NCBI GenBank assembly: GCA_037157565.1
Contig: JAZHRO010000002.1
Span: 38,584,501 to 38,648,500 of the forward strand
Reading direction: 5' to 3'
Length of the DNA stretch: 64,000 nucleotides
From: Thalassia testudinum
Lineage: Eukaryota; Streptophyta; Magnoliopsida; Alismatales; Hydrocharitaceae
Of this stretch, positions 1,679-63,427 are shown in pieces. The position numbers and the translations under genes are program-made. Numbering within the stretch: position 1 is the stretch's first letter; each line of letters starts with the position of its first letter. The notes under the pieces are model-generated. The model did not search any database, was not told the origin of the DNA, and saw nothing but the letters and a program-made list of their open reading frames with translations.

Positions 1679-1719
<41 letters not shown>

Positions 1720-3999: not shown

Positions 4000-4042
<43 letters not shown>

Positions 4043-5140: not shown

Positions 5141-5449
5141 ATTCATCAATTTCGAAAGCAATCATACATTTATACATTCATATTAACCACACATTCATAA
5201 CAATTCATACATTCACACAAGCAATCACACATTTAACCACACGTTCATAACAATTCATACATTCATGAACACACATACATTACATACACCACATATTCTA
5301 TTTAATCATTAAATCAAAATGCATGATATGTCGAAGAATCTCACTGTATGTAATATTGAATGAAATTATATAAAGATTCGTAGATACAAAAAATAAATAT
5401 AATGATAGACCTGTAACCCTACAACTACTAACCCTAAGCCAGCAACATC

Positions 5450-5841: not shown

Positions 5842-6406
5842 TTATATATACATGTAGTTGAATCCAAACATCTGGTTTTAGTAATCTTTTTCAACTAACC
5901 TATGCGCATTCATATCATTCTAAGTTACTTACATGCTTTTCTCTATTTGAATCGTGAAGCCAATCATATAAGTTATCTTTGTTAACCTTGCTATGAGAAT
6001 ACTCATAAACTTCAACTCAAGTCATGTTAGCACCATCATTTTTTTCAGACTACATAGTAATTTGAATGATTCTCTAAGGGTTAGTTTACTTGAAGAGTTA
6101 GAAAACTAGTGTTAGGAAATGCTATGAGACCCTTTTACCCCCTTGAATTAAATTACACAAGTGATATTTAGGCATGAACAAGCTCATATTTGAGTTCTTA
6201 ACCAAATATCACCAATGACATTTCGATTTTGAACCAAATATCACCAGTGATATTTGAACCAAATAGCAAGTAAGAAGTGAATTACTTACAAACTTCAACT
6301 TCAAGATGTTTGTAGTCATCCGACCCAAGCAATGTGTCATGGACCAAGAGGAAACCCACAGACGGGCTCGTCTAACAACATCACAAGACAGAAAAGACTC
6401 ACTATT
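5842..6406. other. CACTA interior with AAATATCACTAGTGATATTT-type repeats
   Basis: At 6150-6270 there are dispersed short repeats of the form AAATATCACCAGTGATATTT. The same repeat type forms a block at 22565-22880, which links the two sides of the proposed CACTA element across the later insertions. The chromovirus target duplication CTATT (6402-6406) ends the segment. Confidence 0.4.
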
Positions 6407-9133: not shown

Positions 9134-9216
9134 ATATAACAAACTCAAAGGAAGTTTCATCCCCGAAACTTGTGCTAACTAGGGTGCGGGAAAACATCAT
9201 AAAAACCATAACAAAC

Positions 9217-10188
9217 TCAAAGAGGACCAAAGTCGGTCCAAAAAGGCGTACCTGCGAAGAGTTCCGGGTACCGCTCCCGCATTGCCGCCTCAGGCTCCCA
9301 GGTAGCCTCCTCGTACCGCTGGCTCCTCCACAAAACCTTTACCAGGGGTACTTGCTTTCGTCTCAAACTGCGGACGGCACGGTCTAGAATCTGCACTGGC
9401 CGCTCGGGGTAGGTTAGGTCGTCGCTCACCTCGACGCTCTCGTGACTCAGTACGTGACTGGGATCGGCTATGAACTTCCTGAGGTTGGACACGTGGAACA
9501 CACCGTGCACACCAGAAAGCTGCGGGGGGAGGGCAAGCCTGTAAGCAACGGGTCCAACCCACTCCAGGACCTCAAAGGGCCCCACAAACCTCGGCGCGAG
9601 CTTCCCTCTCACCCCAAACCGCTGCAGGCCCTTCATGGGCAAAACACGAAGAAAGACGTGGTCCCCAACCTCAAACTGTACCTCTCTGCGTCTCCGATCC
9701 GCGTAGCTCTTCTGTCTGCTCCTGACAGTTCGGAGTCGCCTGTGGATCTGCTCGACTACCTCCTGACTCTGCCGGATCAACCTGGGGCCAACCTCCCACT
9801 TGGTCCCGACCTCAACCCAACTCAAGGGTGTCGTACACTTCCGTCTGTACAGAGCCACGTAGGGAGCCATGCCGATACTTGAGTGATAACTGTTGTTGTA
9901 TGCAAACTCCGCCAGGGGCAAGTGCTCCTCCCAAGAGCCCCTCCAGTCCAGTACACAGGCACGCAAAAGGTCCTCAAGTGTCTGTATCGTGCGCTCAGAC
10001 TGTCCGTCCGTCTGGGGGTGGTAAGCTGTACTAAACCTCAACCGCGTCCCCAAGGCCTGCTGAAACTCAGCCCAAAACTGGGACGTAAAGCAGGTATCCC
10101 GGTCGGATACGATCTCCCGCGGAACTCCGTGTAGTCGTACCACATCCCGGATATACCTCTCTGCCAACTGTGCTGGTCCCAAAGTGAC
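9217..10188 (-). pseudogene. pol: Integrase core, GPF module and chromodomain
   Basis: A 321-residue open stretch with the second and third catalytic residues in IVSDRDT and HPQTDGQSE, separated by 35 residues as the DD35E rule requires. The GPY/F-type module is [18 protein letters not shown]. The C-terminal part ([12 protein letters not shown], then [20 protein letters not shown]) is a chromodomain of the Tekay/Del style, in which the first aromatic cage position is weak. Such chromodomains steer insertion to heterochromatin. The stop TGA at 9217-9219 is the true end of the polyprotein. Confidence 0.93.
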
Positions 10189-11280
10189 TCAGATCGGCAA
10201 GAATCGCACCGTCTTCGTCAGTCTATCCACTATTACCCAGACTGCGTCGTGTCCCCGCTGGGTAACAGGTAAGCCCACCACCAAGTTCATGGTGATGCTC
10301 TCCCACTTCCACTCTGGCACTGGAAGCGGCTGTAGCGGCCCTGCAGGCCTCTGATGCTCGGCTTTCACCTGCTGGCACACTAAGCACTGCTGCATGAATT
10401 CACCCACATCCCGCTTCATCCCCCTCCACCAAAACTCGCATCTCAAGTCGTGGTACATCTTCGTGTTTCCGGGATGTATGGTGAATCTGGAACCGTGTGC
10501 CTCACTCAGGAGCTCTCTCAACAGCTCCTCGTCTCTGGGAATGCACAACCGTCCCCTCAAGCGCAGCACCTGGTCTGTGAAAGAGAAGTCCCCCGGGTCT
10601 CCTGACAGTACTCTGTTGCGCAAGGACTGCAAGTACGGATCGGCCATCTGTCCTGTGATGATGCGGTCTATCAGCTCTGGCCTGGTCTGTCGTGTCACCG
10701 TCACTGCCCCACAGTGCCCCCGTAACTCCAGGGGTCGCCAACTGCCCACCTCCTCCAAAAGGCTCCAACTCTGTAACAGTAGACTGGCCAAGTGTGTGGG
10801 CGCCTTACGGCTCAAGGCGTCAGCCACCACATTGGCCTTTCCCGGGTGGTAGGAGATGCTGCAGTTGTAGTCCTTCAAGAGCTCCAACCAACGTCTCTGT
10901 CTCATGTTGAGCTCCTTCTGATCAAAAAGGTATCTGAGGCTCTTGTGATCTGTGAAAATCTCGAAGGTCTCACCGTACAAGTAGTGCCTCCAGGTCTTCA
11001 ACGCGAAGACAACAGCTGCCAACTCTAGGTCGTGGGTAGGGTAGGTATGCTCATGGGGCTTCAGTTGCCGCGAAGCATAAGCGACAACGTGACCCCTCTG
11101 CATGAGCACACCTCCTAACCCCTGCAAGGAGGCGTCCGTGTACACAACGAACCCGCCACTACTGTCAGGGATGGTGAGCACGGGAGCCGAGGTCAACCTC
11201 TCCTTCAGCTCCAGAAAACACGCCTCACAGGCGTCTGTCCAAGCGAAGGGCACGTCCTTCCGGGTCAACTGTGTCATAGG
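10189..11280 (-). pseudogene. pol: RNase H domain and N-terminal half of integrase
   Basis: The RNase H part shows [13 protein letters not shown] (Asp at about residue 48), [19 protein letters not shown] and VVADALSR. It degrades the RNA of the RNA-DNA hybrid. A HHCC zinc-binding motif of integrase follows ([20 protein letters not shown], then CLVCQQ). The integrase core then begins, but its first catalytic Asp is replaced: the frame reads [11 protein letters not shown] where the copy at 34180 has MDL. The codon is at 10285-10287. A TGA at 10189-10191 interrupts the core. The copy at 34277 has CGA (Arg) there, so this is again C-to-T. Confidence 0.92.
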
Positions 11281-12402
11281 ACGCGCAATCTATGAAAATC
11301 CTCTGATGAATCGTCTGTAGTAGCCTGCCAGTCCCAGGAAACTGCGAATCTCAGTAACTGAACACGGTCTCTCCCACCTGAGTACTGCCTCGACCTTGGC
11401 TGGGTCCACCGCCAAGCCATCTCCAGAGATCACATGACCTAAGAAGGTCACCTCCCTCAACCAGAACTCGCACTTGCTGTACTTGGCATACAGCCTGCGT
11501 CGTCTCAGAGTGTCCAGAACCATCCGCAAATGCTGTCCGTGTTGCGTCCGATCTCTAGAATAGACGAGTACATCATCTATGAAAACCACCACGAACTGGT
11601 CCAAGTACGGTCTAAACACCCGGTTCATCAGATCCATGAAAGCAGCAGGGGCATTGGTCAGCCCAAACGGCATGACCAAAAACTCGTAGTGTCCGTACCG
11701 GGTGCGGAAAGCTATCTTGGAGACGTCGGTCTCCCTGATCCTCAACTGGTGGTATCCAGACCTCAAGTCGATCTTGGAAAACACCGTGGCACCCCGCAAC
11801 TGGTCAAACAAGTCGTCGATCCTCGGCAGCGGATATCTGTTCTTGATGGTGACCCAATTCAGCTGTCGGTAGTCCACACAAAGGCGCAGGGTACCATCCT
11901 TCTTCTTCACAAACAGTACCGGGGCTCCCCAAGGAGACGCACTAGGCCTCACGAAACCTTTCTCCAAAAGGTCCTGCAACGGGGACTTGAGCTCTCGCAG
12001 CTCAAGCGGTGCCATCCTGTATGGCGCGGTGGAGATGGGGCTGGTCCCTAGTAGTAGTGAGATCTCAAACTCGATCTCACGCTCGGGTGGTAGTCCTGGT
12101 AACTCGTCTGGAAACACGTCAGGGTACTCTCTGACCACCAGGATGCTCTGGAAGTCTGCCACAGGTCTGGGCTCTGCCACCACACAAGCTAAGAAGCCCT
12201 CACACCCCTGGCTCAAAAGTCTCGCAGCTCGAAGTGCCGAAATGCACCTAAAACCTCCGTCCACTGGCTGTCCGTGAAACTCGAAAGAAGGCAATTCCGG
12301 AATGGAGAAGACGATCTTCCTCTCAAAACAGTCCACCAAGGCGTGGTAAGCGGACAACCAATCCATCCCCAGAATCACTCCAAAGTCCTCCATCTGTATC
12401 AT
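11281..12402 (-). pseudogene. pol: Reverse transcriptase domain of gag-pol
   Basis: A 370-residue open stretch. After the end of protease (ILGMDWL) come [11 protein letters not shown], the RT entry block [66 protein letters not shown], and the catalytic FIDD at residues 274-277 followed by VLVYS. The thumb motif LGHVIS and the connection [12 protein letters not shown] complete it. All RT motifs look intact. The stretch ends in TAG at 11290-11292. The copy at 59299 has CAG (Gln) at this place, so a C-to-T change created the stop. Confidence 0.93.
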
Positions 12403-12714
12403 AATCAGGTCAGCTGGCAGGCTATGTCCCTCGACGCTGACCTCTCAATCCGTGTACACCTCCTCAGCTACAAACAGCTGACCACTCGGACCTCTGATTA
12501 CGAACGGATTTTCTAATGCTGTATAATCCTAGTCCAAACTAACTGCGAAACTGGCTGCGACAAACGAGTGCGTAGCGCCGGAATCGAAAAGTGTGTAAAC
12601 GAGTCTGCCGGAAACTGAAACCATACCTGCTACCACTGATCCCGAAGCTCTGGCGTCCCTGTGTGTTAGGGCGTTGATACGCCCCTCAGCTCTAGGTGCG
12701 GACGAAGCAGCCAC
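12403..12714 (-). pseudogene. pro: Aspartic protease domain of gag-pol
   Basis: The retropepsin active-site motif is LFDSGATHSF, with the catalytic Asp in DSG. Upstream lies INALTHRDARASGSVVAGMV, a normal lead-in for plant chromovirus protease. The domain would cut the gag-pol polyprotein. The second half (IRGPSGQLFVAEEV) is cut off by TAG at 12529-12531 and TGA at 12445-12447, both in the gag-pol frame. The reading frame itself is unbroken into RT, so only point mutations are involved. Confidence 0.88.
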
Positions 12715-28310: not shown

Positions 28311-30964
28311 TGTTATGACCCAGTTCCCGAATCCCTACAGGGCTCGAGACCGGCTCGACTCGACTAATCCCAAGACCCAGTCGTCCAATAAAAAATAACC
28401 AAAAAGTAGGAAAGTAAACCACATTCACTATGCTAAGTAACTAACAGTAAAAGAGTACAAGCAGTAAGGAAATAAAAACTCCTAACAGTACATATCACCA
28501 CCACAACAGTAAAGCAGAAACAAGTACAGAAACGCAAACGGAAACAAGAGTCAGAACTCACTAACAAAATAAAGTACAACAACAGGGAGACTACTGCTGG
28601 ACTCGACTGGGTCCAGCACCCTCTGCAGCCGGTGACTCGGGCTGCTCAACACCTGGACCTGAAAAGGGTTACGAGTAAATAGAGTCAGCGAACGCTGAGT
28701 AGAGTGGCAACCAACTAACTAAAGCAGTAAAAGCTAACAGGTAAACTATCTATTCCAATTACTTTATTTTACAAGTTATTCTTTTTCACCTATTGGTTTA
28801 TTTTTCAAATCTCTTTCTTGATCTCGAATGTTCCTTGTGGGAACGAACTTGATTGAAGTCTTTTCCGAAGAGTAGAAGGCACACGTGGTGCTCTCCTGGC
28901 CGGGAGAGTCCCCCGTGGTGATCCTACACCCAGTCAACCACCCCAAGGTCACGGACAGACATAGCGATGACTATGGCATGCGCGATAAGTACACGGGTAG
29001 CTACCCCGCACTGGCACGCGGTTAGTCATTTCCGGTAATGGGTATGCCCAAAGTACAACATGGAACAGTATAGGGCCTAGCCCTCTCAATAACAGGGGTC
29101 TAGCCCCTCAGAACCAAACAGGAGTCTAGCCCCTCCACAGTCAGCGCACCCTCGTTTGACTACCCTGGTTTGCCCAGTGGGCCTAACAAGTCAGTGTAGG
29201 GTGGCTAGCTGAACCCCGGGCCCCGTCGGGTGGCTAGCTCTCTCCCTACACTAGTAGCTCTCCCCGGTACAGTGTACGTAAGGGCCAAGAAGTCGGTGTA
29301 GAGTGGCCAATCCTAACCTCGGGTCCCAACCCAAGGGCGACTAGCTTCGCTCTATGCTAAACAGGGGACAGTCGCTCTCCTTGGTGCCACGTACTCAAGG
29401 GCCGGCACATTTCCCACTCACATTTCCAGATCCATTCCATTTATTCACAAGAGCTCTACTCCTAATTCCCTGAAGGGTTCATGCTCGTATTTCTCATGCC
29501 ATCCCATGCTAGGTTTCATTATTCACATTTCCATTCTCAGGATATACACATGCAGCTCGTATTTCCATCATTTAACGTATACAACAGGTAATGTCACAGG
29601 TAACTGTTTACCTAACACAGGTATTTCATATTTCACAGGCAGCTCTTGTTATTAACAGGCAATTGTTAACATTTCTATTCATTCATTTAAGACTGCAATT
29701 TCAAACACGCATACAAACAGTGCAAGTACTTCTCGTCCTACGATTCATGCCACATCCTAGGCTTCTAGTTATCCAATTTCACATATGCACTCAGGGTTTA
29801 TAATTAAATTAGTGGAAGACCACTCTACCAGACAACCCGGGAGTATTGGGGGCTCTAACGGTAGGCTCTCGTGCCTCAGCAAGCCCTGAACCTGCAACTG
29901 ATCGAAGTCCTATAACAAGGAACATACCACAATGGAACATTCAGAATAGTATAAAAGGCCTTCTAACAAGTAGAAGAACTCACAAGGAAAACATCGATAT
30001 CTTGTTTGCATAAAACGGACCTCAAACAAACCCTACATGGGTTAAAAACATGACTGCAGACCTAAATCAGACATCTAGCACAAGGTCCAGACGTCTCAAA
30101 AGTAAGCAAAAACTCATCTCAGGTTCTGTGTCGACCTCAGACGTCCAAAACCTCTTCTAGACCGTCTAGACCCAGCTCCAGACGTCCGACCTCTCCTCCG
30201 GACGTCTAAGAGTGCTTTCGGTCGTATGGTAAGCTGTCCAGACGTCCGAATCGCATGGGAGGGCATGCCCCGCGCCTTCTCGAAGCTGTCTCTGCACGCG
30301 AAAGGCAAAATCCACCGCTTTTAGCCATGCAGATCGAGGCTGCGGTGCGGCCTGCATGGCCGTATCTGTAAAAAGAACGTACCTTCACGGAAAGTTGCTT
30401 TCAGACGTCCGGTATAGTCACCAGAAGTCCGCCCCATCGTCTGGACGTCACGCCAGACGTCTGATTCTGGAAAAATCCCAGAATCAGAGTGACCTGCTGC
30501 TCTCCCTCGCCACACGCAATCGCGGCCTCGCCTCCCTGCCTGCAGCAAGTGTTGAGGATGTCTCCCTCGACGCACTGCTTCGGCCGTGCACCCTCCGGCG
30601 AGACCCCATGAGCTCGCAAGGTCAAGCTCTTCCTCCTCTCCTCATGCCGCCTCTCCTCCTCGTCACGGCTCTCGCGCTCTCTCTTGCTCTCGCTCCTCTC
30701 GCAGTGGTGGAGAGGAAGGGAAGGTGGCTAGGGTGAAGTGGGGAAGAGAGGAGGGGGAGAGGGCCTTTTATAAGGTGCGTTAGGGTTTGGATGGAGGAGA
30801 GAAGAGGGAAAGAGAGATAAGAGAGGTACTGTCTGCGTGCAGCTCACACGCAGACGTGAAGGCTTGTACCAAAATTTCAATTTCCAGACGTCTGGGAAGG
30901 GGTCCAGACATCTGACCGACAGTCTAGACGTCTTAAAAGGCTCAGGACAGAATGGGTCTTTACA
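28311..30964 (-). mobile_element. Solo chromovirus LTR nested in the Athila-type LTR
   Basis: On the plus strand it starts TGTTATGACCC and ends GGGTCTTTACA, 2654 bp. Flanks CACCC (28306-28310) and CACCA (30965-30969) differ at one base. All family blocks are visible, including a TATAAAAGG box on the minus strand (30764-30772), the dyad CTGATTCTGG...CCAGAATCAG (30461-30487) and AGACGTCT-type sites. Confidence 0.9.
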
Positions 30965-31207: not shown

Positions 31208-33811
31208 TGTTAAGACCTGTGACATCAAAACACTTTAAGACGTCTGGAAGTTGGTCCAGACATCTGGACACCTTTCCAGATGTCTGGAAATTAATTTTTG
31301 CGTGCGTACGATCTCTAGCCTGCGTGCGTGCCGCGCGAAGACTGAGCCCCAGCTGCCCTCTTCTCTTCCTTCTTCCCTCGCAGACCTGCAGAAGCTTTTC
31401 CCCACGCCTACAAATACCCCCATCCTCTCACTCATGCCACCCCACTCCATCTTCCTCCTTCCTCCAGCGTGAGAGCGAGAGTGAGAGCGAGCAGCAACTG
31501 CTGCCAGGTGCAGTGGCAGAGAGGAGAGGTGCAATGAGAAGGAAGAGAAGAAAGCGCGTGAGCCATGAGAGAGAGAGCTCGCTGGAGTAGTTCAAGGCCG
31601 GTCGGCGTGCACGCGGAGGAGTGTTGTGCTGAGGAGGTTTCCCCTGGTGCTGCTGCAGCTCGAGCAGCGGGTGAATGAGCGCGGCGCAGCCACGCGCAGC
31701 GGGAAGAAGACGAAGGAGGTTCTGATTCTAGGAATTTTTCCCCGAATTAGACGTATGGACCTACATACAGATGATGTGGACGACGTCTGGAAGAAGCTCC
31801 AGACGACTGATAGGTACGTACTGTGCCTATACCTTCCTTTTTGCGGATACGGCCATGCAGGCAGTTCCACCGAAACTCTGCAGCGTGCTGTGTTTGAGAG
31901 CTTTTGCGTGCGCATGCAGGATTCACTTCGGGAAGGCGCAGGACACGCCCTCCCATGCGGTTCAGATGTCTGGGCGAGTCACCAGATGGCGGAGAGCATC
32001 TCCAGATGTCCGGAGAGGTGGTCGGACGTCTGGAACTAGGTCCAGACAGTTCAGCAGGACCCCTGGACGTTTGAGGAGCAGCGCAGAGCGAGGTATGGAT
32101 CTGGACCCCTTTTAAGACGTCTGGAAGGTGTTCCAGATGTCTGATTTGAGTCAGAATTGTCATTTTTGACCCGTTTAGGGTCCGTTCGAGATTCGATTTC
32201 CGCGTTTAAGATTCCGTTCTTCTTCATATAAGTTCCTCTACTTGTTGGAATGCTTGTTATCATGTTCTGAGTGGTTTCTTGTGGTTAATACTTGTGTTAG
32301 GATCTCATTCTGTTGCAGACTTGGGGGTTGTGGAGGCACGTGGACCTGCCGATCCCACCCCCATTTCTCCCGATTTTGCAGGTAGAGTGGCTTCCCTTAG
32401 TTAATTACAAACTTAACTGCATGTCTGGAATAAATGATAGATCCTAGGGTTTGGCATGAATCCTAGGACCAGAAACACTAGATTGAATGATAGATCCTAG
32501 GGTATGGCATGAATCCTAGGACTAGAAACACTGGAACGATTGTATTGAATGCCTGAATTGCAGTCTTGGAGGAGTAGATAGAATAATAATAATTGCCTGT
32601 AATTGGATAACAGGTGCCTGTGAAATGTAGAGTACTGTTGTTAGTAACTGCTACCTGTAATTCCTGTTGTTTGAAATTAAATACGAGCTGCATGTATATA
32701 AATTGGAAAAGAAAGTTTGAATGTTGGAAACACGTGCTATATACGAATAAACCTGAAATGATGAAACCTAGTATGGCTTGGCCTGAGAAACATGAGCATG
32801 AACCCTACGGGGAATTAGGAGTAGAACTCCTGGAAATAAATAGAACAGAACTGGAAAAGTGAATGGGAAAGTGTGTTGTCTCTTTGGTACGTGGTACCAA
32901 GGGAAGCACATGTTACCTCTTAGTGCAAAGCGGAGCTAGCCACCCTATGGTTGAGACCCGGGGTTAGGTCTGGCCACTTTGTACTAACTTTTGGCCCTAG
33001 ACCCCTGTTATTGAGAGGGCTCTGCCCTATACCGGTTCCGTGCTGTGCCTTGGGCGCACCCTTTAATGGAAATAACTGACCGCGTGCCAGTGAGGGGTAG
33101 CTAGCTGTGCATTTATCGTGCGTGCCGTAGTCACCGTTATGTCTGTCAACGACCTTGTGGTGGTTGACTGAGGGTATAACCACCACGGGGACTCTCTCGA
33201 CCAAGAGAGCACCACGTGCTACTTCTACTCTTCGGAAAAGACTGCAATCAAGATCGTTCCCACGAGAAACATTCGAGATCAAGAAAAAGACCTGATAAAT
33301 GAACCAAGTAATGAAAGAAATAATAATTAGCTGAATAAAGAAGAAATTAAAAATAATAGCTACTTGTCCACCTTTACTGTTCTTCTTAGCTAGCTGGTTG
33401 CCACTCTACTCAGCGTTTCGCTGACGTGTCGTACTTACCACCTTTTTCAGGTCCAGGTGTTGAGCAGCCAGAGCCTACGGCTACGGAGGGTGCTGGGCCT
33501 AGTGGATCCCAGTAGTTGTACTTGTGTTGTACCCATTTTCTATAGTAGTGAGTATTTGTTACACTTTTGTACTCTTTTATTGTAAACTTCATATTCTGTA
33601 CCTGTTTTAATTTCTCTACTGTTGTGGTGGTATGTACTATAGTAGTTGTTTCTTTACTGCTGTACTTTGTTTACTGTTAGTTGCTTGCATGGTGAATGTG
33701 GTTTATTTTACTATTTTTTGGTTACTTTCTCATTGGACAACTGGGTCTTGGGATCAGTCGAGTCAGTCCAATTCTTGTGTCTTGTAGGGATTCGGAAACC
33801 GGGTCATAACA
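31208..33811 (+). repeat. 5' LTR of the deletion derivative
   Basis: Starts TGTTAAGACCTGTGACATC and ends GGGTCATAACA, 2604 bp. Compared with its partner it lacks about 200 bp near 32990 (TTTTGGCCCT joins directly to AGACCCCTG). The palindrome cores are at 31238, 31258 and 31278, exactly 20 bp apart. Confidence 0.93.
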
Positions 33812-33814
33812 GGA

Positions 33815-35335: not shown

Positions 35336-38059
35336 TGTTATTAAGACCCGTGACATCAAAACACTTTAAGACGTCTGGTCAGACGTTTGGACACCTTTCC
35401 AGACGTCTGGAAATTAATTTTTACGTGCGTACGACCGCGAGTTTGCATGCGTGCCGCACGCAGACTGAGCCCCAACCGCCCTCTTCTCTTCCTTCTTCCC
35501 TTGTAGACCTACAGAAGCTTTTCCCCTACGCCTACAAATACCCCTGTCCTCTCCCTCGGGCCACCCCACTCCATTCGTCTCATCCTTCCTCCAGCGCGAG
35601 AGCGGGAGTGAGAGTGAGCAGCAGCTGCTGCAAGGTGCAGTGGCGGAGAGGAGAGGTGCAGCGAGAAGGAAGAGAAGAGAGCACGCGAGCCGTGAGAGAG
35701 AGTGCTCGCCGGAGCAGTTCGAGGCTGGTCAGTGTGTGCGCAGAGGAGCGTTGTGCTGGGGAGGTTTCCCCCGGTGCTGCTGCAACTTGAGCAACGGGTA
35801 GACGAGCGCGGCGCGGCCGCACGCAGCGGGAAGAAGAAGAAGGAGGTTCTAATTCTGGGAATTTTTCCCAGAATTAGACGTCTGGACCAACATCCATACG
35901 ACGTGGACAACATCTGGAAGAAGCTCCAGACGACTGATAGGTACGTACTGTGCCTATACCTTCCTTTTTGTGGATACGGTCATGCAGGCAGTTCCGCCGA
36001 AACTCTGTAGCATGCTGTGTTTGAGAGCTTTTACGTGCGCATGCAGGATTCGCTTCGGGAAGGTGCGAGACATGCCCTCCCACGTGGTTCATACGTCTGG
36101 GCGAGCCACCAGACGGCGGAGAGCATCTCCAGACATCCGAAAAGGTGGTCGGACGTCTGGAACTAGGTCCAGATGGTTCAGCAGGACCTCTGGACGTCTG
36201 AGGAGCAGCGCAAAGCGAGGTATGGATCTGGACCCCTTTTAAGACGTCTAGAAGGTGTTCTAGATGTCTGATTTGAGTCAAAATTGTCATTTTTAACCAA
36301 TTTAGGATCCGTTCGAGGTCCGATTTCCGCGTTTAAGATTCTGTTCTTCTTCGTATAAGTTCCTCTACTTGTTGGAATGCTTGTTATCATGTTCTGAATG
36401 GTTTCTTGTGGTTGATCCTTGTGTTAGGACCTCGTTTTGTTGCGGACTTGGTGGTTGTGGAGGCATGTGGTCCGATTTTGCGAGTAGAGTGGCTTCCCTT
36501 AGTTAATTACAAACTTAACTGCATGTCTGGAATAAATGATAGATCCTAGGGTTTGGCATGAATCCTAGGACCAGAAACACTAGATTGAATGATAGATCCT
36601 AGGGTATGGCATGAATCCTAGGACTAGAAACACTGGAACGATTATATTGAATGCCTGAATTGCAATCTTGGAGGAGTAGATAGAATAATAATAATTGCCT
36701 GTAATTAGATAATAGCTGCCTATGAAATGTAAAGCACTGTTGTTAGTAACTGCTACCTGTAATTCTTGTTGTTTGAAATTAAATACGAGCTGCATGTATA
36801 TAAATTGGAAAAGAAAGTTTGAATGTTGGAAACACGTGCTATATGCGAATAAACTTGAAATGATGAAACCTAGTATGGCTTGGCCTGAGAAACATGAGCA
36901 TGAACCCTACGGGGAATTAGGAGTAGAACTCTTGGAAATAAATAGAACGGAACTGGAAAAGTGAATGGGAAAGTGTGTTGTCTCTTGGGTACGTGGTACC
37001 AAGGGAAGCACATGTTACCTCTTAGTGCAGAGCGGAGCTAGCCGCCCTAGGGTTGAGACCCAGGGTTAGGTCTGACCATTTTGTACTGACTTTTGGTCCT
37101 CGCGTACACAGTATCGGGGAGAGCTACTAGTGTAGGGAGAGAGCTAGCCACCCCACAGGACCCGGGATTCAGCTAGCCATCCTACACCGACTTGTTAGGT
37201 CCACTGGGCAAACCAGGGTAGTCAGGCGAGGGTGCGCGGACTGTGGAGGGGCGAGTCCCCTGTTTGGTTACTTTGAAGGGGCTAGACCCCTGTTACTGAG
37301 AGGGCTCTGCCCTATACCGGTTCCGTGCTGTGCTTTGGGCGCACCCGTTAATAGAAACGACTGACCGCGTGCCATAGTCACCGTTATATCTGTCAACGAC
37401 CTTGGGGTAGTTGACTGAGGGTAGGACCACCACGGGGGACTCTCTTGGCCAGGAGAGCACCACATGCTACTTCTACTCTTCGGAAAAGACTGCAATCAAG
37501 ATCGTTCCCACGAGGAACATTCGAGATCAAGAAAAAGACCTGATAAATGAACCAAGTAATGAAAGAAAGAATAATTAGCTGAATAAAGAAGAAATTAAAA
37601 ACAACAGCTACCTATCCACCTTTACTGTTCTTCTTAGCTAGCTGGTTGCCACTCTACTTAGCATTTCGCTGACGTGTCGTACTTACCACCTTTTTCAGGT
37701 CCAGGTGTTGAGCAACCAAAGCCTTCGGCTGCGGAGGGTGCTGGGCCTAGTGGAGCTCAGTAGTTGTACTTGTGTTGTACCCATTTTCTGTAGTAGTGAG
37801 TATTTGTTACACTTTTGTACTCTTTTATTGTAAACTTCATATTCTGTACCTATTTTAATTTCTCTACTGTTGTGGTGGTGTGTACTGTAGTAGTTGTTTC
37901 TTTACTGCTGTACTTTGTTTACTGTTAGTTGCTTGCATGGTGAATGTGGTTTATTTTACTGCTTTTTGGTTACTTTCTCGTTAGACGACTAGGTCTTGGG
38001 ATCAGTCGAGTCGGTTCGATTCTCGTGTCCTGTAGGGATTCAGGAACCGGGCCGTAACA
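35336..38059 (+). repeat. 3' LTR of the deletion derivative
   Basis: 2724 bp, beginning TGTTATTAAGACCCGTGACATC and ending GGGCCGTAACA. It retains the block missing from the 5' LTR but has its own small losses near 36465 and 37372. The dyad at 35849-35877 has 13-bp perfect arms. Confidence 0.93.
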
Positions 38060-38175
38060 GCGGGGCACTCTCGTGAACACTTCCAGGCTTCTAATTAAAG
38101 CCAAGCGTGATCACTGCAGCTGCAATCGAACGAAGTTTCCCTGACGTAGGCACGCACTAGGAGGGTGGGCAGATA

Positions 38176-38217
38176 GTCCCACCTCGGAACTGGACGAAGC
38201 GCAGCGCCTGCATAAAT
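38176..38217 (+). promoter_or_regulatory. snRNA-type upstream element plus TATA-like box (copy 1)
   Basis: GTCCCACCTCG (38176-38186) differs by one base from the plant snRNA upstream sequence element RTCCCACATCG. After exactly 24 bp comes CATAAAT (38211-38217). The motif TCGCCTC starts 28 bp after the start of the TATA-like box. The spacing is identical in the copies at 55533 and 62497. Confidence 0.45.
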
Positions 38218-38238: not shown

Positions 38239-38474
38239 TCGCCTCCTACTCACTGGGTGAGGTCCCCTCTCACTCGACCCAACGCCTCATCCGCGACCAC
38301 CCCCCCACGGACCTGGTGATCCGACCCGACCCAGCACACCTCACCCACCACCGCACGCCAATGGGCCTGGTCCCAGGCATGTACCAGACTCGATTACCTG
38401 AGAAGTGGCTCTGGGAGAGCGAACCCAAGAAAGAAAGAGGAGAAGAGAGCGCGCGCAGGTAGGGGTAGGTTTTT
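38239..38474 (+). ncRNA. Candidate Pol III-like transcript in LTR (copy 1)
   Basis: A GC-rich stretch of about 236 bases without any T4 run, ending at GG followed by TTTTT (38470-38474). It contains a GGGTGAG...CTCACTC hairpin and the block GGGCCTGGTCCCAGGC. Alignable blocks occur in the same order at 55596-55844 and 62560-62799. Whether it is transcribed is unknown. Confidence 0.3.
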
Positions 38475-49964: not shown

Positions 49965-52640
49965 TGTAATGACCCGGTTCCCGAGTCCCTACGAGACACG
50001 AGAACCGGACCGACTCAACTAATCCCAAAACCTAGTCGTCCAACGAGGAAGTAACCAAAAGAGCAGTAAAATAAACCACATTCAGCATGGATATAACTAA
50101 CAGTAAGAAAGTACAGCAATAAGGAAAGAAACTACCACAGTATGTACCACCACAACAGTAGAACAACATTCATAATAAAATTTAAACTGCAGGTAAAGAA
50201 AGTACAGCGGAAATGAGAACTACTCACTACAACGTAACAAAAAGAGGTACAAGAGACAGTGGTAACTCTACTGGACCCTACTCGACCCAGCGTCCTCTGC
50301 AGCCGCTGACCCTGGCTGCTCAACACCTGATCCTGAAAAAGGTAACGAGTGTAACACGTCAGCAAAACGCTGAGTAGAGTGGCAACTAAACTAAAGACAA
50401 CAGTAGAGTGTACAGTAGCTGTTACGTTCGATTACTTTCTTTATTCACATCTTTCAATTGTCTCACTATTTCATTTATTCCTTAGATCTTTTTCTTGATC
50501 TCGAATGTTCCTCGTGGGAACGATCTTGATTGCAGTCTTTTCCAAAAAGTAGAAGTAGCACGTGATGCTCTCCTGGCCGGGAGAGTCCCCCGTGGTGATC
50601 CTACCCTCAGTCAACCACCCCAAGGTCACTGACAGACGTAACGGTGACTACGGCACGCGCGATAAATGCACAGGTAGCTAACCCGTACAGGCACGCGGTC
50701 AGTCGTTTCCGTTAACGGGTGCGTCCAAAGCACAGCACGGAACCAGTCCAGGGCAGAGCCCTCTCAGTAACAAGGGTCCAACCCCTCCACAGTAACCAAA
50801 CCGGGGCCTTGCCCCTCCACAGTCCGCGCACCCTCGCCTGATTACCCTGGTTTGCCCCAGTGGGCCTAAACAAGTCGGTGTAGGAGGCTAGCAGAACCCT
50901 GGGGCCCGTGGGGTAGCTAGTGCCCTCCTAACACTAGTAGCTCTCCTCGGTACTACGTACGCGAGGGCCAGCAAGTCGGTACAGAGTGGCCAGTCCTAAC
51001 CCCAGGTCCCTGGGGCGGCTGGCTCCACTCTGCACTAAACAGGTACAGGTACTTCCCTTGGTACTACGTACCCAAGAGACAGTACACAACTACATCTCAG
51101 TTCCATTCCTTTCTCTTTCCAGGAGTTCCACTCCTAATTCCCCCGTAGGGTTCCATCCTTTTTACCCAAACATCCAGGTTTCACTTTCCAGTTTCACATT
51201 CTTACAATCCATGTTCTCAACCACGTTATTTATTCACAACAGGCAGCTGTTAATTCAAATTACAGGCAGCTTTATATCTCTTCCCATTTTCCAAGACTGC
51301 AGTATTATACATTCCACTAGTTTTACCATCCTAGGATTCATGCCACATCCTAGGATCTATCATACAATCTAGTTTTCCAGCCCTAGGATTCATGCAACAC
51401 CTAGGAGCTATCATTCCATCTATTTCTCATTCCTAGGATTCATGCAATGTCCTAGGTCCTATTTATGGTTCCATAATTTAACAGATTTTATTAATAACTT
51501 AAAGCCACTCTACCAGGTACAATGGAAGTAATGGGGGCGTGATCGGGAATCCTGCGTGACTCCGCAACCCCCGAGACAAGGATCAAACACAAGGAGTGTC
51601 TTAAAACAGTGTATAGCTACTGTAGACGGGTAGAGGATTTAATTCCGGAAAGAACGCAACTCGAAACGCGGAAAACGGAACCCGAACGGGCCCTCAACGG
51701 GTCGAAAACGACGACACTGTGCAAAATCAGACGTCTGGAACTTCTTCCAGACGTCTTAAAAAGTGGATCAGAGAATTACCTTGTTCAGCGTGGTTTCGCA
51801 GATGTCCAGAAGTCTGTGGGGACGTCTGGCCTAGCTCCCAGATGTCCGATGGTCACCCCGGAAGTCTCGAGGTCGATTTCGACGTCTGGTACTACAGCCA
51901 GACGTCTGATCCGCGTTGGATGGTGAATCACCGAGCCTGCGCACACCCATCTCTCTCCCTCAGTACGGTCAGTCGACAGGAAGGAAGAAGAAGACGGAAA
52001 ACTCACCTTTCAGATGTCTGGACAGTCTTTCAGACGTCGACCCCGCCGTCTGTCTATCAGCACAGACGTCTAATTCTGGAAATTTTTCCAGAACCAGGGC
52101 GCGACTCGCCCTCCGCTCGCGACGCCGCTCGCGTCGCACCTCGTGCGCCTGCTGCTCGAGCCGCAGCAGGCCTCCCGCGTCGTTCCGCGCCCGCTGCGCT
52201 CCCCGCCGGCCAGCCCTGGCAGCCCCGGCAAGCTCGCCCTCACGGCTGAGCGCCGCTCTCGCACGCAGCACCCCCTCCGCGCTCACTGTGGCCGTCGCCG
52301 CCGCAGCAACCCCGTGCCCGCTCTCGCGCTCGCTCACTGGAAGAAGAAGAGGAAAGGGGTGGAGGCGACGGAAGCGAGGGGAGGCATGGTCTTTTTAAGG
52401 CCGCGCGAGGAGGAGAGAGAGGGAACACGGCAGCGGCGTCTGCAGCCGCAGAGAGAAGAATAAGCGAATATGCGGTCTGCGCGCTCAGGCGCGCAGACGA
52501 CCCGCGCGTGTCGAAAATAACTAATTTCCAGACGTCTGGAAACGATCCCAGACGTCTGATCAGACGTCTGGATGTGATCCCAGACGTCTGGGCCACCTCC
52601 CAGACGTCTTAAAAGACGTCTGGGGCACGCGTTCGTAACA
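49965..52640 (-). mobile_element. Solo chromovirus LTR nested in LTR, TSD GCTGT
   Basis: Plus strand starts TGTAATGACCC and ends GTTCGTAACA; 2676 bp; perfect GCTGT on both sides (49960-49964 and 52641-52645). It is very similar to the LTRs of the full-length element. The palindrome array at 52529-52622 is the cleanest in the window: exact CAGACGTCTG at 52529, 52549, 52561 and 52581. Confidence 0.95.
52529..52622. promoter_or_regulatory. Array of AGACGTCT palindromes in U3
   Basis: Cores begin at 52530, 52550, 52562, 52582, 52602 and 52614, so the spacing is 20, 12, 20, 20 and 12 bp. GACGTC is an ACGT-core C-box of the kind bound by plant bZIP factors (established for TGA/bZIP families). Binding here is inferred only. 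The array sits at the very start of the LTR, upstream of the TATA box. Confidence 0.7.
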
Positions 52641-54521
52641 GCTGTTAAGGGAAGTGAGTTGACCTTCATGTACATGGTACCAAAGAGAGCAACTATCCCT
52701 TGTAGTGTAGAGGGGAGCTTGCCGCCCTTGGGTTGAGACCTGGGGTGGGTTTGGCCACTCTACGTCAACTCTTGCTGGCTCTTGTGTACGTGGTACTGAG
52801 GTGAGCTACTTAGTGTAGGGGAGAGTTAGCCGCCCCAGGGGGCCCGGAGTTAGGTATGGCCACCCTACGCTGACTCTTGTTAGCCCGTTGGGCAAACCGA
52901 GATAGTCGGACGAAGGTACGCAGACTGAGGAGGGATGAGATCCCAGTTCTATTCTGTTCTGAGAGGATAAGGCCCTATACTGTTTCACGTTGTACGTTGA
53001 GGCGTACCCGCTAGCGGAAACAACTGACCGCGTGCCAGTGCGGGGTAGCTACCCACGCGCTTATCACGTGTGCCGTAGTCACAGCTACGTCATGACTGTG
53101 ACCTCGAGGTGGTAGATCGGGTGTAGGACTACCACAGAGGGACTCTCCCGGCTAGGAGAGTGCCACGTATGCATCCTACATCATAGGAAACTGCAAGCAA
53201 AATCGTTCCCTTAGGGAACAAGAAGATTAATCAGATGAACCCTGATTAAAGATCTCTACACAGAAAACTGTTATAGGATAATTTGGATCAGAAAGTAATA
53301 TGTTAAACTACCTGTTAAATGCATTTTTATGTTAGCCACCACTCTACTCAGTGTTAACTTACTCCAGTTATATAATTTTGTACAGGGCAAGGATTTGAGC
53401 AGCCCGAGCTACCGGCTGCTAAGGACGCTAGGCCTAGTCAAGCCCAGCTGTAGTTTCTACTGCTTGTTGTAGTGAGTTCCTGCAGTTATTTTTTTCAGCA
53501 CTTTCCGTTATGTTCTCTATCTGTACTAGTTCTGTTGTAATGACAGAATTCCTATTCTTGAGGGCATGCAATATTCTAGAATTACTATTTTTTCGTTGCC
53601 ATTTTCTTTCTGCTTAGCTACTGTACTTGTGTGGTTGTGGATTGATGCATGTTATTTGGTTATTTCTCACTGGAAGACTGGGTCTAAGGATTAGTCGAGT
53701 GATGAGAGCCTCATCATGAGCCATAACTAGCTCATTTTGACCCAATAAAGAAGATAAAAGCTCCTACATAACCTAGAAGAAGGCCTAACTGAAGGAACAA
53801 GTGCCTTGAGAAGAAAACATGAAATAAAGGTTAAAACTGCAATTTTACCATTGCAGTACGTAAACGGGATTTCTCAGAGGCAAAACATAGGTCAAATGGT
53901 ATAAATGAGATAAAAAGAGGGTTGAGTCAATCAGAAATGGGTTCATGTGCAATCTAAGAACTAAATAATACTTGGTAACCCTAAAATAGACCCGCTTAAA
54001 TTAACAAGGTTCCGGTCAGAACAAAATGCAATTAAACCCTCTAAAAATCATATAAAAACATCCTCTAGGATTTAGAACACTTAATTTGGCCTTTGGAACC
54101 TAGTCTGACCTAGATCAGGGTCCTAGCTCCTCAATTAACCTAATTTAGGTTTTTACGCAAAATATCCAGTCAAACGAGGTCAAACCTAAAATCCAACTTC
54201 ACCATTGGATTCCTTAGGTCCAAATTAGATTTTTACCAAAATTTGGACCTAAGGAGAGGTCATCTTGACCTACTTTGCAATTTAGTACACCCAAATCATA
54301 AATTAGTCCCTATCTTTTGAATACCTTTGCGGAGAGCCCCCTAGGTTCTTCGCCTCCTTTGCAAACCAGTCCTTCCGCCATTGCTAGGGCAGAACCGAGC
54401 TCCGGCGAGGTTCGGAGAGGGATTGCTCTCTAATCCCTCAGAGATTCCCTCCCAGAAATGGAAGGAGGATTCTCTGAGGAATTCCCTTCCTTATAAAGCC
54501 AATTACAATCGCTGGTGTGAA

Positions 54522-54556
54522 CCCAATCTCTCGTGCGAACGCACGAGCGATTTGGG
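54522..54556. promoter_or_regulatory. LTR dyad upstream of TATA (copy 2)
   Basis: Arms CCCAATCTCTCGTGC and GCACGAGCGATTTGGG around a GAAC loop, with one bulge and one mismatch. It lies 76 bp before TATAAAAG. Confidence 0.65.
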
Positions 54557-54632
54557 TATCCACCTTCCAACTCCGGCAAGTCGGCAGACCTAGTGGCGCG
54601 TTCTCCACGCGCTGACAGGAGCGGCCAGCACC

Positions 54633-54640
54633 TATAAAAG
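54633..54640 (+). promoter_or_regulatory. Putative Pol II TATA box of Athila-type LTR
   Basis: TATAAAAG at the start of a GC-rich segment. The corresponding box in the copy at 60687 is TATAAAAA (61595-61602). Confidence 0.6.
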
Positions 54641-55532
54641 ACACCCCAGACCCTGCCGCAGAAGGCGAGCTTGATTTGGCCGAGTGTCCACCCCCAATTC
54701 GTCTCCTCCTGCCCGGCCAAAAGTCCCAGCAAGCTCCGGCGAGCCCCCCTCCCCTCCCTCTTCGCTCTACCACAAACCAGTGGCAGAGTTAGCTTCCTGA
54801 CTTCCCTCCGCGTCGCGCAGTACCCGTGCACGCCGCCTCAGCCCCATCGTCGCCGCCGTTCTCCCCCACTGGGTGTCATCTTCTCCGGCGACAGCAGGTA
54901 CTGCTGTCCGCCTTCCGTCCCCTTTCGTCCTTACAATTAGGTTAGAAACTCCTCTCCATCCTCTCCTCTCTCTTTTCCCCCTGTTATCTCATCTGATTTC
55001 CCCTCGACTGACGCTGACCACCCTCATCTTCCACATCACCGACCAACCTCCGGCGAGCCGCTTCCACCATTCCAGCCCCCCACACGACTCACCAACCACT
55101 TCGAGAGCTCCGCCTCACCACCAGGAACTCGCTCCACCCTACAACTGCCAGTCCAGACCTCCATAATCACCCCCCGAACAACCCACCATCTCCGGCCACA
55201 GGTTGACCTAGGCACGCATGCCTAGGCCGACCGGCAACCTGCAGCATCGTCCACCGCCTTCGCCGTGCCACGGCGTAGGTCTCTAGCTGATCTGATTGGG
55301 CCGAGAGGCTCGTTTTGTGCATGACAGTGTTTGAGCTCCTGCCGCCATGGACAACCTCTGATGAAGCTCCAACGAAGCTCCAGGCATCAGGCTTCCCAGG
55401 CTGCAGATGCAGGAGACTCACGCGAGTGTCGCGAGGTGAGTGAGCCCAGCACAGAGCGCCAGCAGAGCCATCCGCTTGGGCAATTGCATACGAGAGTCTG
55501 CGGGCACGCGTGAAATCAGGGCGGAACCTTTA

Positions 55533-55574
55533 GTCCCACATCGTGGGTTTGCAACACTCAGGTACGCTATAAAT
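55533..55574 (+). promoter_or_regulatory. snRNA-type upstream element plus TATA box (copy 2)
   Basis: GTCCCACATCG (55533-55543) is an exact match to the plant snRNA upstream sequence element RTCCCACATCG. TATAAAT follows at 55568-55574 after 24 bp. In plant U6 and U3 genes a spacing of this order specifies RNA polymerase III, while Pol II snRNA genes have about ten bases more. The match is seen directly; the function is inferred. Confidence 0.55.
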
Positions 55575-55595
55575 TGTATTTGTGCATTAAGCTAG

Positions 55596-55844
55596 TTGCC
55601 TCTGTAAGCACAGGGGTGAGGTCCCTCACTGACCCCACACCCGCTTCGTCCGCGGCTTGACCACGCGGATCTGGCGGATCCGACCTGACCTAAGCCAACG
55701 CACTCCTCGCGCATCACACCACCTGCAGGTGCACCTGGTCCCGGGTACGATCCGACCCGATTATGGCTGTGGCTCTGGGAGAGCGTCCATGAGTGAACTG
55801 CTTAAGAGAGAGACGCGCGGGTAGAGGGAGAAGGGTTAGGTTTT
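55596..55844 (+). ncRNA. Candidate Pol III-like transcript in LTR (copy 2)
   Basis: From TTGCCTC, 28 bp after the start of TATA, to GGTTTT (55841-55844) there is no run of four T residues over about 249 bases. It contains GGGTGAGGTCCCTCAC, GTCCGCGG...CGCGGAT and GCACCTGGTCCCGGGT, all able to fold locally and all alignable with the other two copies. The boundaries are predicted from promoter and terminator rules only. Confidence 0.3.
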
Positions 55845-55859
55845 GCTCCTGTGCAGGCA

Positions 55860-56080
55860 GGCTGAACGCAGGAGAAGAAGAAGGAAAGGCAAGCCAAAGA
55901 AGAAAAGAAAGAAGGAGCAAGACAGAGAAGAAGAAGAAAGAAAGAAGCTTTCGCAGGAGAAGAAGGAAAGCAGAAGAAGAAGAAGAAGAAGAAGAAGGCT
56001 TCGCAAGACAAGAAAGAAAGCAGAGAAAGAAGCAAACGAAGAAGAAAATGAGAGACTGCAAAAGAACAAGAAAAGGAGAA
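55860..56080 (+). repeat. Purine-rich (GAA/AAG) tract of Athila-type LTR
   Basis: About 220 bases almost purely A and G on the plus strand, at the same LTR position as 38416-38790 and 62815-63215. Lysine/glutamate- and leucine/serine-rich frames here are compositional. Confidence 0.8.
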
Positions 56081-56089
56081 ATACTTTTA

Positions 56090-56117
56090 AGACGTCTGAT
56101 CACAAGATCAGATGTCC
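56090..56117. repeat. AGACGTCT pair in Athila-type LTR
   Basis: TTTTAAGACGTCTGATC, then ACAA, then GATCAGATGTCC: two palindrome cores 20 bp apart forming an inverted repeat. The same pair occurs at 38808-38835 and 62941-62968, and in the chromovirus LTRs with the same spacing. Confidence 0.75.
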
Positions 56118-56410
56118 AATTTCATATTTTTGTCTTAATTACTTTTAACTGCATACATTCACATTTGAATTGATATTTTGAGTAAATTAGAGTGTTCAAT
56201 TACATTTTGACTAGTAGTAAATTCCATTTGCTCCCTGTGATCGACCTCGGATACTCCGGTCTTCGAGTAATAAAATTCTTTATATTTGTTTAGACGTTTT
56301 GTCGGTTATACTACAACGTGACATCCTTTGAACCCGCACAAAACGTCGACAAACATCGAGGCGAGCCAGTCTCGGATCCTGTAGGGATCTGGGTTCGGGT
56401 CGTGACAAGA

Positions 56411-60281: not shown

Positions 60282-60686
60282 TGTTACGAACGCGCGGTTT
60301 CAGACGTATTTTAAGAAGTCTGGGAGGTGGCCCAGACGTCAAACCAGACGACTGGAACCCCTCCCAGACGTCTGGGATTTGATTACGGCGGCACGCGCGG
60401 TCGTGTCTGCGCGCCTGCATGCGCAAACCTGCAGGTGCCCTTTTTCCCTCTCCTCCGCAGGCGCTGCCCCCCTGTCCCGCTCTCTCTCTCCTCCCCACGA
60501 GGCTTTAAAAAGCCTCGCCCTCTCCCTCACTCTCACCACCTCCGCTTCTCCTTCTTCTTCTTCCAGCGAGTGCGAGCGCGAGCGAGCGGCGGCGGTGGCA
60601 GCCGCGGCGAGTGCAGGAGGAGGTGCTGCGCAAGAAGAGGAGGCGCTCGGCCGTGAGGGCGAGCTTGCCGGGGCTGCTAAGGCCGG
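60282..60686 (+). mobile_element. Chromovirus LTR start inserted in integrase, cut by Athila
   Basis: It begins TGTTACGAACGCGCGG with palindrome cores at 60314, 60334, 60346 and 60366 (20, 12 and 20 bp), a CT-rich block, TTTAAAAAG and the GC-rich block. It stops at 60686 where the Athila-type element starts. The remaining LTR must lie to the right of the window. Left target site AGAAT (60277-60281). Confidence 0.9.
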
Positions 60687-61487
60687 TGATGAGAACCTCA
60701 TCATGGGCCATAACTAGCTCATTTTGACCTAATACAACGGATAAAAGCTCCTACATAACTCAAGGAAAGGCTTAACTCAGAGAATTCTGAGTTTAAGAAG
60801 AAAACAGAAACTAAGGGGTAAAAATGTAATTTTACCAGCACAATCTGCAAGCAGGGTAATTCAGGGTCCAAACACAGGTCAAACAAACCTAATAAGAAGG
60901 AAAGTGGGATGATCTGATCTGATAAGGGCTACAGCAACTCCAAGGAATTAAATGACAATCTGTAACCCTAAAACAAACCCACTTCAATTCATGAGGTTCG
61001 AGGCAAAGAAAAAAGTCGACTAAACCCTCTACAATTCGTAGAAAAATAATCTCTAGGGTTTAGAACCTTCAATTTAGCCTTAGGAACCCATTTTGACCTA
61101 CATTGAGAACCATGCCCAATTAATGACTTAATTTGGGTTTTTACGTAAATTGACCGATCAAGCAAGGTCTGATCTAGAAATAAAATTCACCATTAGAATC
61201 CTTAGGACCCATTTAGTCATGCATAAAAACTTGAGCCTAAGAAGAGACCTTCTTGACCGACTTTGCATTTTGGTCCTCATTCATTACTTTTTGACCCTCA
61301 ACTTTTGAAACCCTCGCATTTTGGTCCCTAACTCTTCTTCGTTCTTTGCATTTGGGTCCTCCCTGCAAAACCCTGAGCAGCGCCATGCTCCGGTGACCTT
61401 GCGCAAGGCATGGACCCCCTACCAAGTCAACCAGGGGTTCCCTGCGACGTCAGCCGTCGCAGGAACACCCCCTGATCGCTGCAATCG

Positions 61488-61523
61488 CCCATACCGCCCG
61501 TGCGAACGCACGGACGGTATGGG
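61488..61523. promoter_or_regulatory. LTR dyad upstream of TATA (copy 3)
   Basis: Arms CCCATACCGCCCGTGC and GCACGGACGGTATGGG pair at 15 of 16 positions around a GAAC loop. It lies 71 bp before TATAAAAA (61595-61602). The arms differ in sequence from copies 1 and 2, but pairing is kept. Confidence 0.7.
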
Positions 61524-61594
61524 TCTCCATCTCTGGTGTCCTCTGGCGAGGGAGTCACGTCGTCTCCCTCCGCCCTCCTCTCTGTTTCTGCCTC

Positions 61595-62496: not shown

Positions 62497-62538
62497 GTTC
62501 CACCTCGGAACTTTTGAGAGGTCCACACCCACATAAAG
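62497..62538 (+). promoter_or_regulatory. snRNA-type upstream element plus TATA-like box (copy 3)
   Basis: GTTCCACCTCG (62497-62507) deviates at two bases from RTCCCACATCG. After exactly 24 bp comes CATAAAG (62532-62538). The downstream motif TTGCCTC begins 28 bp after the box start, as in the other copies. Confidence 0.4.
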
Positions 62539-62559: not shown

Positions 62560-62799
62560 TTGCCTCCTGAGCACGGGGTGAGGTCCCTCTCACCCGCTCG
62601 AGCCGGCCTCGTCCGCGACCACGCCTCGCGGACCTGGCCCGACCCGTTTACCCGTCCTGCACTCCTCGCCCACCACCGCACGCCGGTGGGCCTGGACCCG
62701 GGCGCGACCCGCGTACCCGACTACCCGGCAACTCTGGGAGAGCTATCCTATGAGTGGATTCTGAGAGAGAGAGACGCGGGGGAGGGTAGAGTAGGTTTT
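62560..62799 (+). ncRNA. Candidate Pol III-like transcript in LTR (copy 3)
   Basis: About 240 bases without a T4 run, ending at GGTTTT (62796-62799). It contains the perfect hairpins GGGTGAG-GTCCCT-CTCACCC and GTCCGCGA-CCACGCC-TCGCGGAC, and the block GGGCCTGGACCCGGGC. Prediction only. Confidence 0.3.
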
Positions 62800-63215: not shown

Positions 63216-63409
63216 ACAAATCTCTCTCTCTCTCTTTATTTTTTTGTAATAGAAACTTCGTACCTCTAGAATACAACTTGCTCCCTTAGTTCGACCTCGG
63301 GAGAACTTTCATTTCCGAGTAAAAATTGTAATAATGGCAATGACTATCTATACTACAACGTAATTTCTATAACAAAACAACAAAACCTAGTCATAACGCC
63401 GTTATCACT

Positions 63410-63427
63410 TGGTGCCGTTGCCGGGGA
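63410..63427 (+). other. Primer binding site, tRNA-Asp type
   Basis: TGGTGCCGTTGCCGGGGA, two bases after the LTR end. It differs by one base from TGGCGCCGTTGCCGGGGA, the tRNA-Asp primer site typical of plant Athila elements. Confidence 0.85.

Follow-up and report, generated by a model that had tools for sequence, protein, structure and literature searches.

A putative U6-type Pol III gene in the long terminal repeats of plant retrotransposons, preserved across ten lineages of one genome

Work on promoters in the long terminal repeats (LTRs) of plant retrotransposons has treated them as Pol II promoters silenced by the host. In the stretch of 64,000 nucleotides analysed here (the window), LTRs also contain the paired promoter motifs of plant snRNA genes, which raises the question of whether they hold a second transcription unit, read by Pol III. 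We put the probability at about 0.78 that the unit is a Pol III promoter of type 3, like those of U6 and telomerase RNA genes, with its use by Pol III inferred from its layout. It seems rather probable, to a lesser degree, that LTR retrotransposons of plants contain a Pol III gene of U6 type that is their own and encodes a structured noncoding RNA, and that this gene has survived while ten lineages diverged within one genome. A literature search found no description of a Pol III unit in a plant LTR, which is weak evidence of absence because most subscription papers lay outside that search. Pol III units in animal retroviral LTRs or proviruses are already known (foamy viruses and bovine leukemia virus, according to the accessible parts of the reports); new here would be an external promoter of snRNA type, in plants, for a Pol III RNA gene in an LTR.

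In the accessible parts of three papers, plant snRNA genes transcribed by Pol III are described with the upstream sequence element RTCCCACATCG near -70 and a TATA box at -28 to -30 (PMC9845283, PMC11961915, PMC10379810). The distance between element and box is given there as one helical turn shorter in Pol III genes than in Pol II genes, where it spans four turns (PMC9845283), and the available text of another paper states that this distance decides the polymerase in land plants (PMC9841428). The earlier note on this DNA had claimed such an arrangement at one exact element and at two substituted repeats with the same distance, and the sequence reads so. The exact element GTCCCACATCG occupies 55533-55543 and is followed by a 24-bp spacer (55544-55567) and the box TATAAAT (55568-55574). 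The repeats consist of GTCCCACCTCG at 38176-38186 with CATAAAT at 38211-38217, and GTTCCACCTCG at 62497-62507 with CATAAAG at 62532-62538, again 24 bp apart, and all three units lie on the forward strand. We call their families F55, F38 and F62. The substitutions noted in the F62 element are present as described, but T at 62499 among them occurs in the window copy alone and is absent from the other 29 of the 30 F62 loci. The RNAs predicted from the three units would extend from 55598 to 55844 (about 245 nt), from 38241 to 38474 (ending in TTTTT at 38470-38474, as judged also from 20 other F38 copies) and from 62562 to 62799 (ending in TTTT at 62796-62799, as judged also from the F62 loci).

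Within the window, on both strands, the element (up to two mismatches) followed after 24 bp by TATAAA (up to one mismatch) was observed three times against 0.08 expected, and the three units are homologous, so that they represent a single origin rather than three. With gaps of 22-26 bp the same pair occurred four times against 0.43 expected (expected counts from 200 first-order Markov simulations). The element alone was unremarkable in the window (19 matches with up to two mismatches against 12.7 expected; at least 19 in 6 of 100 shuffles).

We searched the genome assembly of 4.26 Gb, whose size and kinds of elements point to a plant host, for further copies. First-look candidates numbered 4590 for the F55 query, 4901 for F62, 10432 for F38, 5198 for F65, 1252 for F05 and 4963 for the family of L065:1560; these numbers overlap and are not copy counts, and 40 candidates were scored per query. 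We read 30 of the 40 loci listed for F55, 30 of 40 for F62, 20 of 40 for F38 together with the window copy, 20 of 40 for F65 and 20 of 41 for F05. For the family of L065:1560, 42 places were listed and a stretch over a tandem array was read, and its copies were left out of the counts. Diverged single copies came from the flanks of the first 60 loci (three) and from 60 kb beside matches (six); one of these nine, L003x, is a body without the promoter region and was set aside, leaving eight. The sample thus comprises 129 copies (30 F55, 30 F62, 21 F38, 20 F65, 20 F05 and 8 single), in which copies that have lost the promoter are under-sampled because the queries included it.

The copies fall into ten lineages, namely the five families and the single copies L014x, L063_764, L067_9745, L065_1603 and L063_8493, whose representatives are 42-71% alike pairwise over 300 nt from the element. 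The remaining three single copies group with F62 (87%), F65 (84%) and F05 (76%), and matches within families were listed at 73-98% identity. The commonest form of the element is an exact RTCCCACATCG in F55, F65 and F05 and has one mismatch (A8C) in F38 and F62. The box is TATAAA only in F55; the other families mostly have CATAAA, GATAAA or CATAAG. Two single copies are decayed, L065_1603 with three mismatches in the element and L063_8493 with a poor box; a further copy from the L065_1603 lineage shows GTCCCACATCA, 24 bp and CATAAAT.

One test named beforehand was whether the spacing varies freely in a large set of copies. It does not: the gap between element and box is 24 bp in 128 of the 129 copies, across all ten lineages, and 25 bp in the remaining one (L102), so the U6-like geometry that had been claimed for the window copies extends to the sampled genome. 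In this scoring the gap was free to take any value from 14 to 44, and the box was constrained only by a CCTC-like start region lying 26-35 nt beyond it. When 335,779 bases were scanned for the element (up to two mismatches) and NATAAA, 70 pairs were found at a gap of 24 against 2 at all other gaps from 10 to 45; most of these 70 come from family loci that had been retrieved by similarity, and the count includes each of the three window copies twice. Insertions and deletions tell the same story in an alignment of 104 copies (made without F05 and some single copies), where the spacer, the box and the next 18 bp contain no deletion and a single insertion, that of L102. In the element one column is gapped, in one copy (L073), when insertions are included. 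Elsewhere gapped columns make up 17 of 56 upstream of the element and 20 of 60, 32 of 60, 17 of 60 and 20 of 52 in successive parts of the body, the first of which lies after 55600.

The other test named beforehand was whether the motifs are more conserved than their flanks, and the element and the box were found to change about four times less than the spacer and the upstream flank. Fitch counts over 128 copies, on a tree of the body sequences that follow the start, gave 3.4 changes per site for the element and 2.7 for the box, compared with 12.75 for the spacer and 12.8 for the upstream positions -25 to -3 (P-value = 3e-5 for the element and 1e-4 for the box against the spacer, Mann-Whitney test with sites treated as independent). 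Within the element the CCAC core shows 0 changes and the final CG shows 10 and 11, while the TA immediately before the element has 1.0 change per site. The 24 bp between the motifs are therefore fixed in length and free in sequence. At the downstream end, the four columns of the TTTT at 55841-55844 have 0, 0, 1 and 0 changes in the 104 copies, against 8 at 55845 and 5-8 per column at 55850-55856. Together with an internal block, GTGAGGTCC at 55616-55624 (0.9 changes per site, one of the lowest rates along the body), the element, the box and the T-run form four islands of constraint, and much of the body drifts. Changes counted within any one young family are of little use here, since its copies decay once they have inserted. 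About 50 bp upstream of the element, CAATTGCA (55481-55488) also has fewer changes than its neighbours and no inferred deletions.

The predicted start is marked by a pyrimidine-purine step at the box start +29/+30. Of the 129 copies, 112 have G and 12 have A at position +30 (55598 in the F55 window copy), and T or C precedes it in 128. Counted from this position, the first TTTT comes after 242-243 nt in 29 of 30 F55 copies (the body of one F55 copy has no TTTT after the predicted start), 233-234 nt in 29 of 30 F62 copies, 221-230 nt in all 21 F38 copies and 237-241 nt in all 20 F65 copies. The F05 body is about 90 nt shorter and keeps the element and the spacing; its first TTTT lies at 136-157 nt in 13 of 20 copies and at 173 and 182 nt in two, and is absent in five. 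Thirteen of the 20 F05 copies end in GG followed by four or more T, and among all 129 copies the T-run after GG is only four long in 105. The lack of an earlier TTTT is not evidence, since the bodies are T-poor and 82-96% of shuffled bodies also lack it. The product is predicted to be structured and about 140-245 nt long (about 140-160 nt in F05 and about 230-245 nt elsewhere).

The folding of this predicted product was analyzed. Single-sequence folds of the three window copies were unremarkable (z = -0.5, -1.8 and +1.9), and RNAalifold applied to 20 diverged rows returned almost no consensus structure. Two hairpins were picked by eye and then tested for pairing against versions with slid arms. 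Candidate hairpin H2 (55648-55670, arms 55648-55654 and 55664-55670) is paired in 656 of 720 cells (91%), against at most 379 cells (53%) for slid versions; in the 20-row set, 91 of 1000 row shuffles reach the observed pairing, so covariation was not found for H2. Hairpin H3 (55709-55734, arms 55709-55715 and 55728-55734) is paired in 682 of 725 cells (94%), against at most 333 cells (46%) for slid versions, and differences between lineages in one arm are matched by changes in the other. Only 2 of 20000 reshuffles of the ten lineages reach the observed pairing, as do 5 of 5040 permutations of the seven distinct arm pairs. Without the poorest lineage, L063_8493 (3 of 7 positions paired), the corresponding figures are 21 of 20000 and 5 of 720. 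With H3 and some of its arms placed by eye and F05 left out, we regard the covariation as supportive rather than decisive.

Comparison with known gene types places the unit closest to U6, U3 and telomerase RNA genes, with which it shares RTCCCACATCG, the Pol III spacing class, a T-run end and, if the predicted start is right, a box at -30 and a purine start, and from which it differs in lying in an LTR and in having mostly NATAAA as its box. Of the features of a type 3 Pol III gene, the upstream element, the spacing class and the T-run terminator are all present; the position of the TATA-like box fits the predicted purine start at +30, and its sequence is degenerate outside F55. Relative to the predicted start, the element covers -65 to -55, compared with about -70 in textbook genes. 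Measured centre to centre, element and box are 33 bp apart, about three helical turns, which is the Pol III class under the rule in the accessible part of PMC9845283 rather than by reference to the host's own U6 genes. The predicted RNA is similar in length to plant telomerase RNA/AtR8, described in the available text as a Pol III RNA of about 260 nt with upstream element, TATA box and terminator that disappears in SNAPc mutants (PMC6765143). In a monocot host, the scarcity of MSP-like motifs would amount to a missing part: RGCCCR occurs within 60 nt upstream of the element, on either strand, in only 2 of 128 copies.

Several known RNA types were also searched for in the window. No known RNA family (U6, U3, 7SL or other Rfam entries) gave a gathering match there, and a search at E up to 10, which covered the surroundings of two of the three window copies, gave just three sub-threshold matches. 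None of AAACCC, CTAAAC, AACCCT or TAAACC occurs in the three window bodies, which argues against a copy of telomerase RNA, and ARAGORN found no tRNA in the window that would point to a tRNA-like origin.

The units lie well inside their LTRs. The F55 LTR extends approximately from 53700 to 56340 on the forward strand (homology to the second LTR begins at 53699/60686), LTRs bearing the unit are about 2.6-2.7 kb long, and the flanks of 30 aligned F55 loci diverge about 850 nt past the start of the queried stretch. An ordinary LTR TATA box, TATAAAA in CTATAAAA, presumably that of the Pol II promoter, is found at 54633-54639 on the same strand. The earlier note had placed it about 900 bp before the unit, and this distance recurs in the family: in at least 23 of the 28 F55 loci with CTATAAAA, it precedes the element by 900-902 bp. 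Six pairs of neighbouring matches, each interpreted as the LTR pair of a single element, are 94-97% alike. Protease, reverse transcriptase, RNase H and integrase zinc-binding domains were detected between the F62 LTRs at the window end (L061). A primer binding site, TTGGTGCCGTTGCCGGGGA, follows the F62 LTR at 63409-63427 on the forward strand; we take it to be Athila-like, and the Athila label of the element rests on it. The F55 LTR near 55 kb and the F62 LTR near 62 kb are about 60-70% identical over most of their length, so as a block the RNA body shows no unusual conservation.

Constraint acts on the element, the spacing, the box, the start dinucleotide, the T-run and one hairpin, and the first five of these features support the earlier suggestion of a second promoter of Pol III type in the LTRs. 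From them we infer that the unit is used by SNAPc and Pol III and that its RNA is made. In this model the upstream sequence element would be the binding site of SNAPc and the NATAAA box, 24 bp beyond it, that of TBP/TFIIIB; transcription by Pol III would begin at the purine 30 nt past the box start and end at the conserved TTTT. In the version that we favour, the RNA would serve the retroelement, either in its RNA cycle or against silencing, and its synthesis would not depend on the ordinary LTR promoter about 900 bp upstream. Another version of the same reading is that the promoter matters and the RNA does not, with Pol III assembly keeping the LTR chromatin open or forming a boundary. The drift of much of the body, and a body length that varies by about 90 nt between families while the promoter stays constant, would suit it; the covariation of H3 and the retention of the GTGAGGTCC block and the T-run speak against it, and we consider it a minority possibility. 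We lean towards the RNA, rather than the act of transcription, being what matters. The unit is also kept in F55 LTR pairs separated by only about 7.1 kb, which suggests a part needed in cis.

Readings without Pol III fare less well. The unit might be a conserved part of the retroelement's own Pol II RNA (a packaging, dimer, splicing or leader signal) whose likeness to a Pol III gene is accidental. It lies downstream of the ordinary TATA box and may therefore be inside the genomic RNA, the conserved H3 and GTGAGGTCC block would suit such a role too, and GGTGAGG, in the conserved region near the predicted RNA 5' end (55616-55624), resembles a splice donor and could act as one. We nevertheless regard this as unlikely, because it leaves unexplained both the fixed 24-bp distance across freely changing sequence and the joint match of motifs, distance, start dinucleotide and T-run to one gene type. 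The same element also serves Pol II snRNA genes, and the box is non-canonical in four of the five families, which would fit a SNAPc-dependent promoter of U1/U2 type whose element and box recruit Pol II to make a capped RNA. Plant Pol II snRNA genes have a 3' box with the consensus CA(N)3-10AGTNNAA. Within 275 nt this consensus was found in 1 of the 8 single copies and in 0 of the 121 family copies, which have the conserved T-run instead. The distance of about three helical turns, against four in Pol II genes in the available text of PMC9845283, also disagrees with a U1/U2 type, which we consider still less likely. Chance and shared descent without function could be invoked on the grounds that the motif was chosen by eye and that the family copies are close relatives, so that the counts overstate independence. 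Flank and spacer have nevertheless changed several times more than both motifs, and the gap length persists in lineages as little as 42% alike, which makes this explanation very improbable.

If the Pol III reading is true, the same LTR would hold a second transcription system, possibly active while its Pol II promoter is silenced, and its product would add a new class to the RNAs of mobile elements. The unit would be a plant counterpart, with another promoter type, of the foamy virus LTR RNAs, an RNA gene acting in cis or in trans. Foamy virus Pol III promoters are gene-internal and their products are microRNA hairpins; the plant unit, outside animal viruses, has an external snRNA-type promoter and a longer predicted RNA. 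To our knowledge the microRNA cluster of bovine leukemia virus is not an LTR unit. The let RNA of MuLV is a Pol III retroelement RNA said to come from the LTR, with a promoter type and host that differ from those of the plant unit. In the accessible parts of the reports, simian and bovine foamy viruses have Pol III microRNA units, the simian ones in the LTR, and the likeness lies in a Pol III unit of a reverse-transcribing element (PMC7104284, PMC7693620). Bovine leukemia virus, as far as the available text describes it, makes its Pol III microRNA cluster during latency (PMC4992882); it resembles the plant unit as a source of Pol III retroelement RNA and differs in promoter type and host. The barley BARE LTR has two TATA boxes for tissue-specific expression, and so a second promoter in one plant LTR, and the accessible part of that report mentions no snRNA element (PMC3485330). 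If the 1252 to 10432 overlapping first-look candidates per query reflect real copies, there would be thousands of SNAPc sites across the 4.26-Gb genome. The reading makes a sharp prediction, a 5' end at the box start +30 and a 3' end at one T-run.

Some rearranged copies and neighbouring repeats were also recorded. In L130 (1-1081) a tandem array contains three units whose matches start 348 and 312 bp apart; the upstream element is recognisable in the first unit only, and the other two begin within the spacer and keep a CATAAAT box. The RNA body also occurs without its promoter, after LTR-end-like sequence, in L003 (2373-2575 of the oriented strand), perhaps as a recombined LTR. Another LTR type, ending in GGGCCGTAACA, adjoins the F38 LTR fragment in the window (33552-33812 and 37800-38060), and LTR-end-like sequence at 56330-56405, after the 55k LTR, resembles it, which suggests nested insertions. 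A Ty3/gypsy element with reverse transcriptase, RNase H, integrase and chromodomain matches lies on the minus strand at 9220-12444.

Long palindromes able to form hairpins are present at 54520-54560 and 61487-61526, about 75 bp before the ordinary LTR TATA box. They have the core GTGCGAACGCAC common to both LTRs and outer arms that differ between the two yet match within each, and the surrounding stretches, which also constitute repeat D15, fold at -29.8 and -31.3 kcal/mol. The palindrome core GYGCGAACGCAC is exact in 12 of 30 F55 and 16 of 30 F62 loci. A further palindromic repeat of CCAGACGTCTGG type (family D2) occurs at eight places between 30 and 64 kb of the window, for example at 30397-30465, 52524-52624 and 60308-60376.
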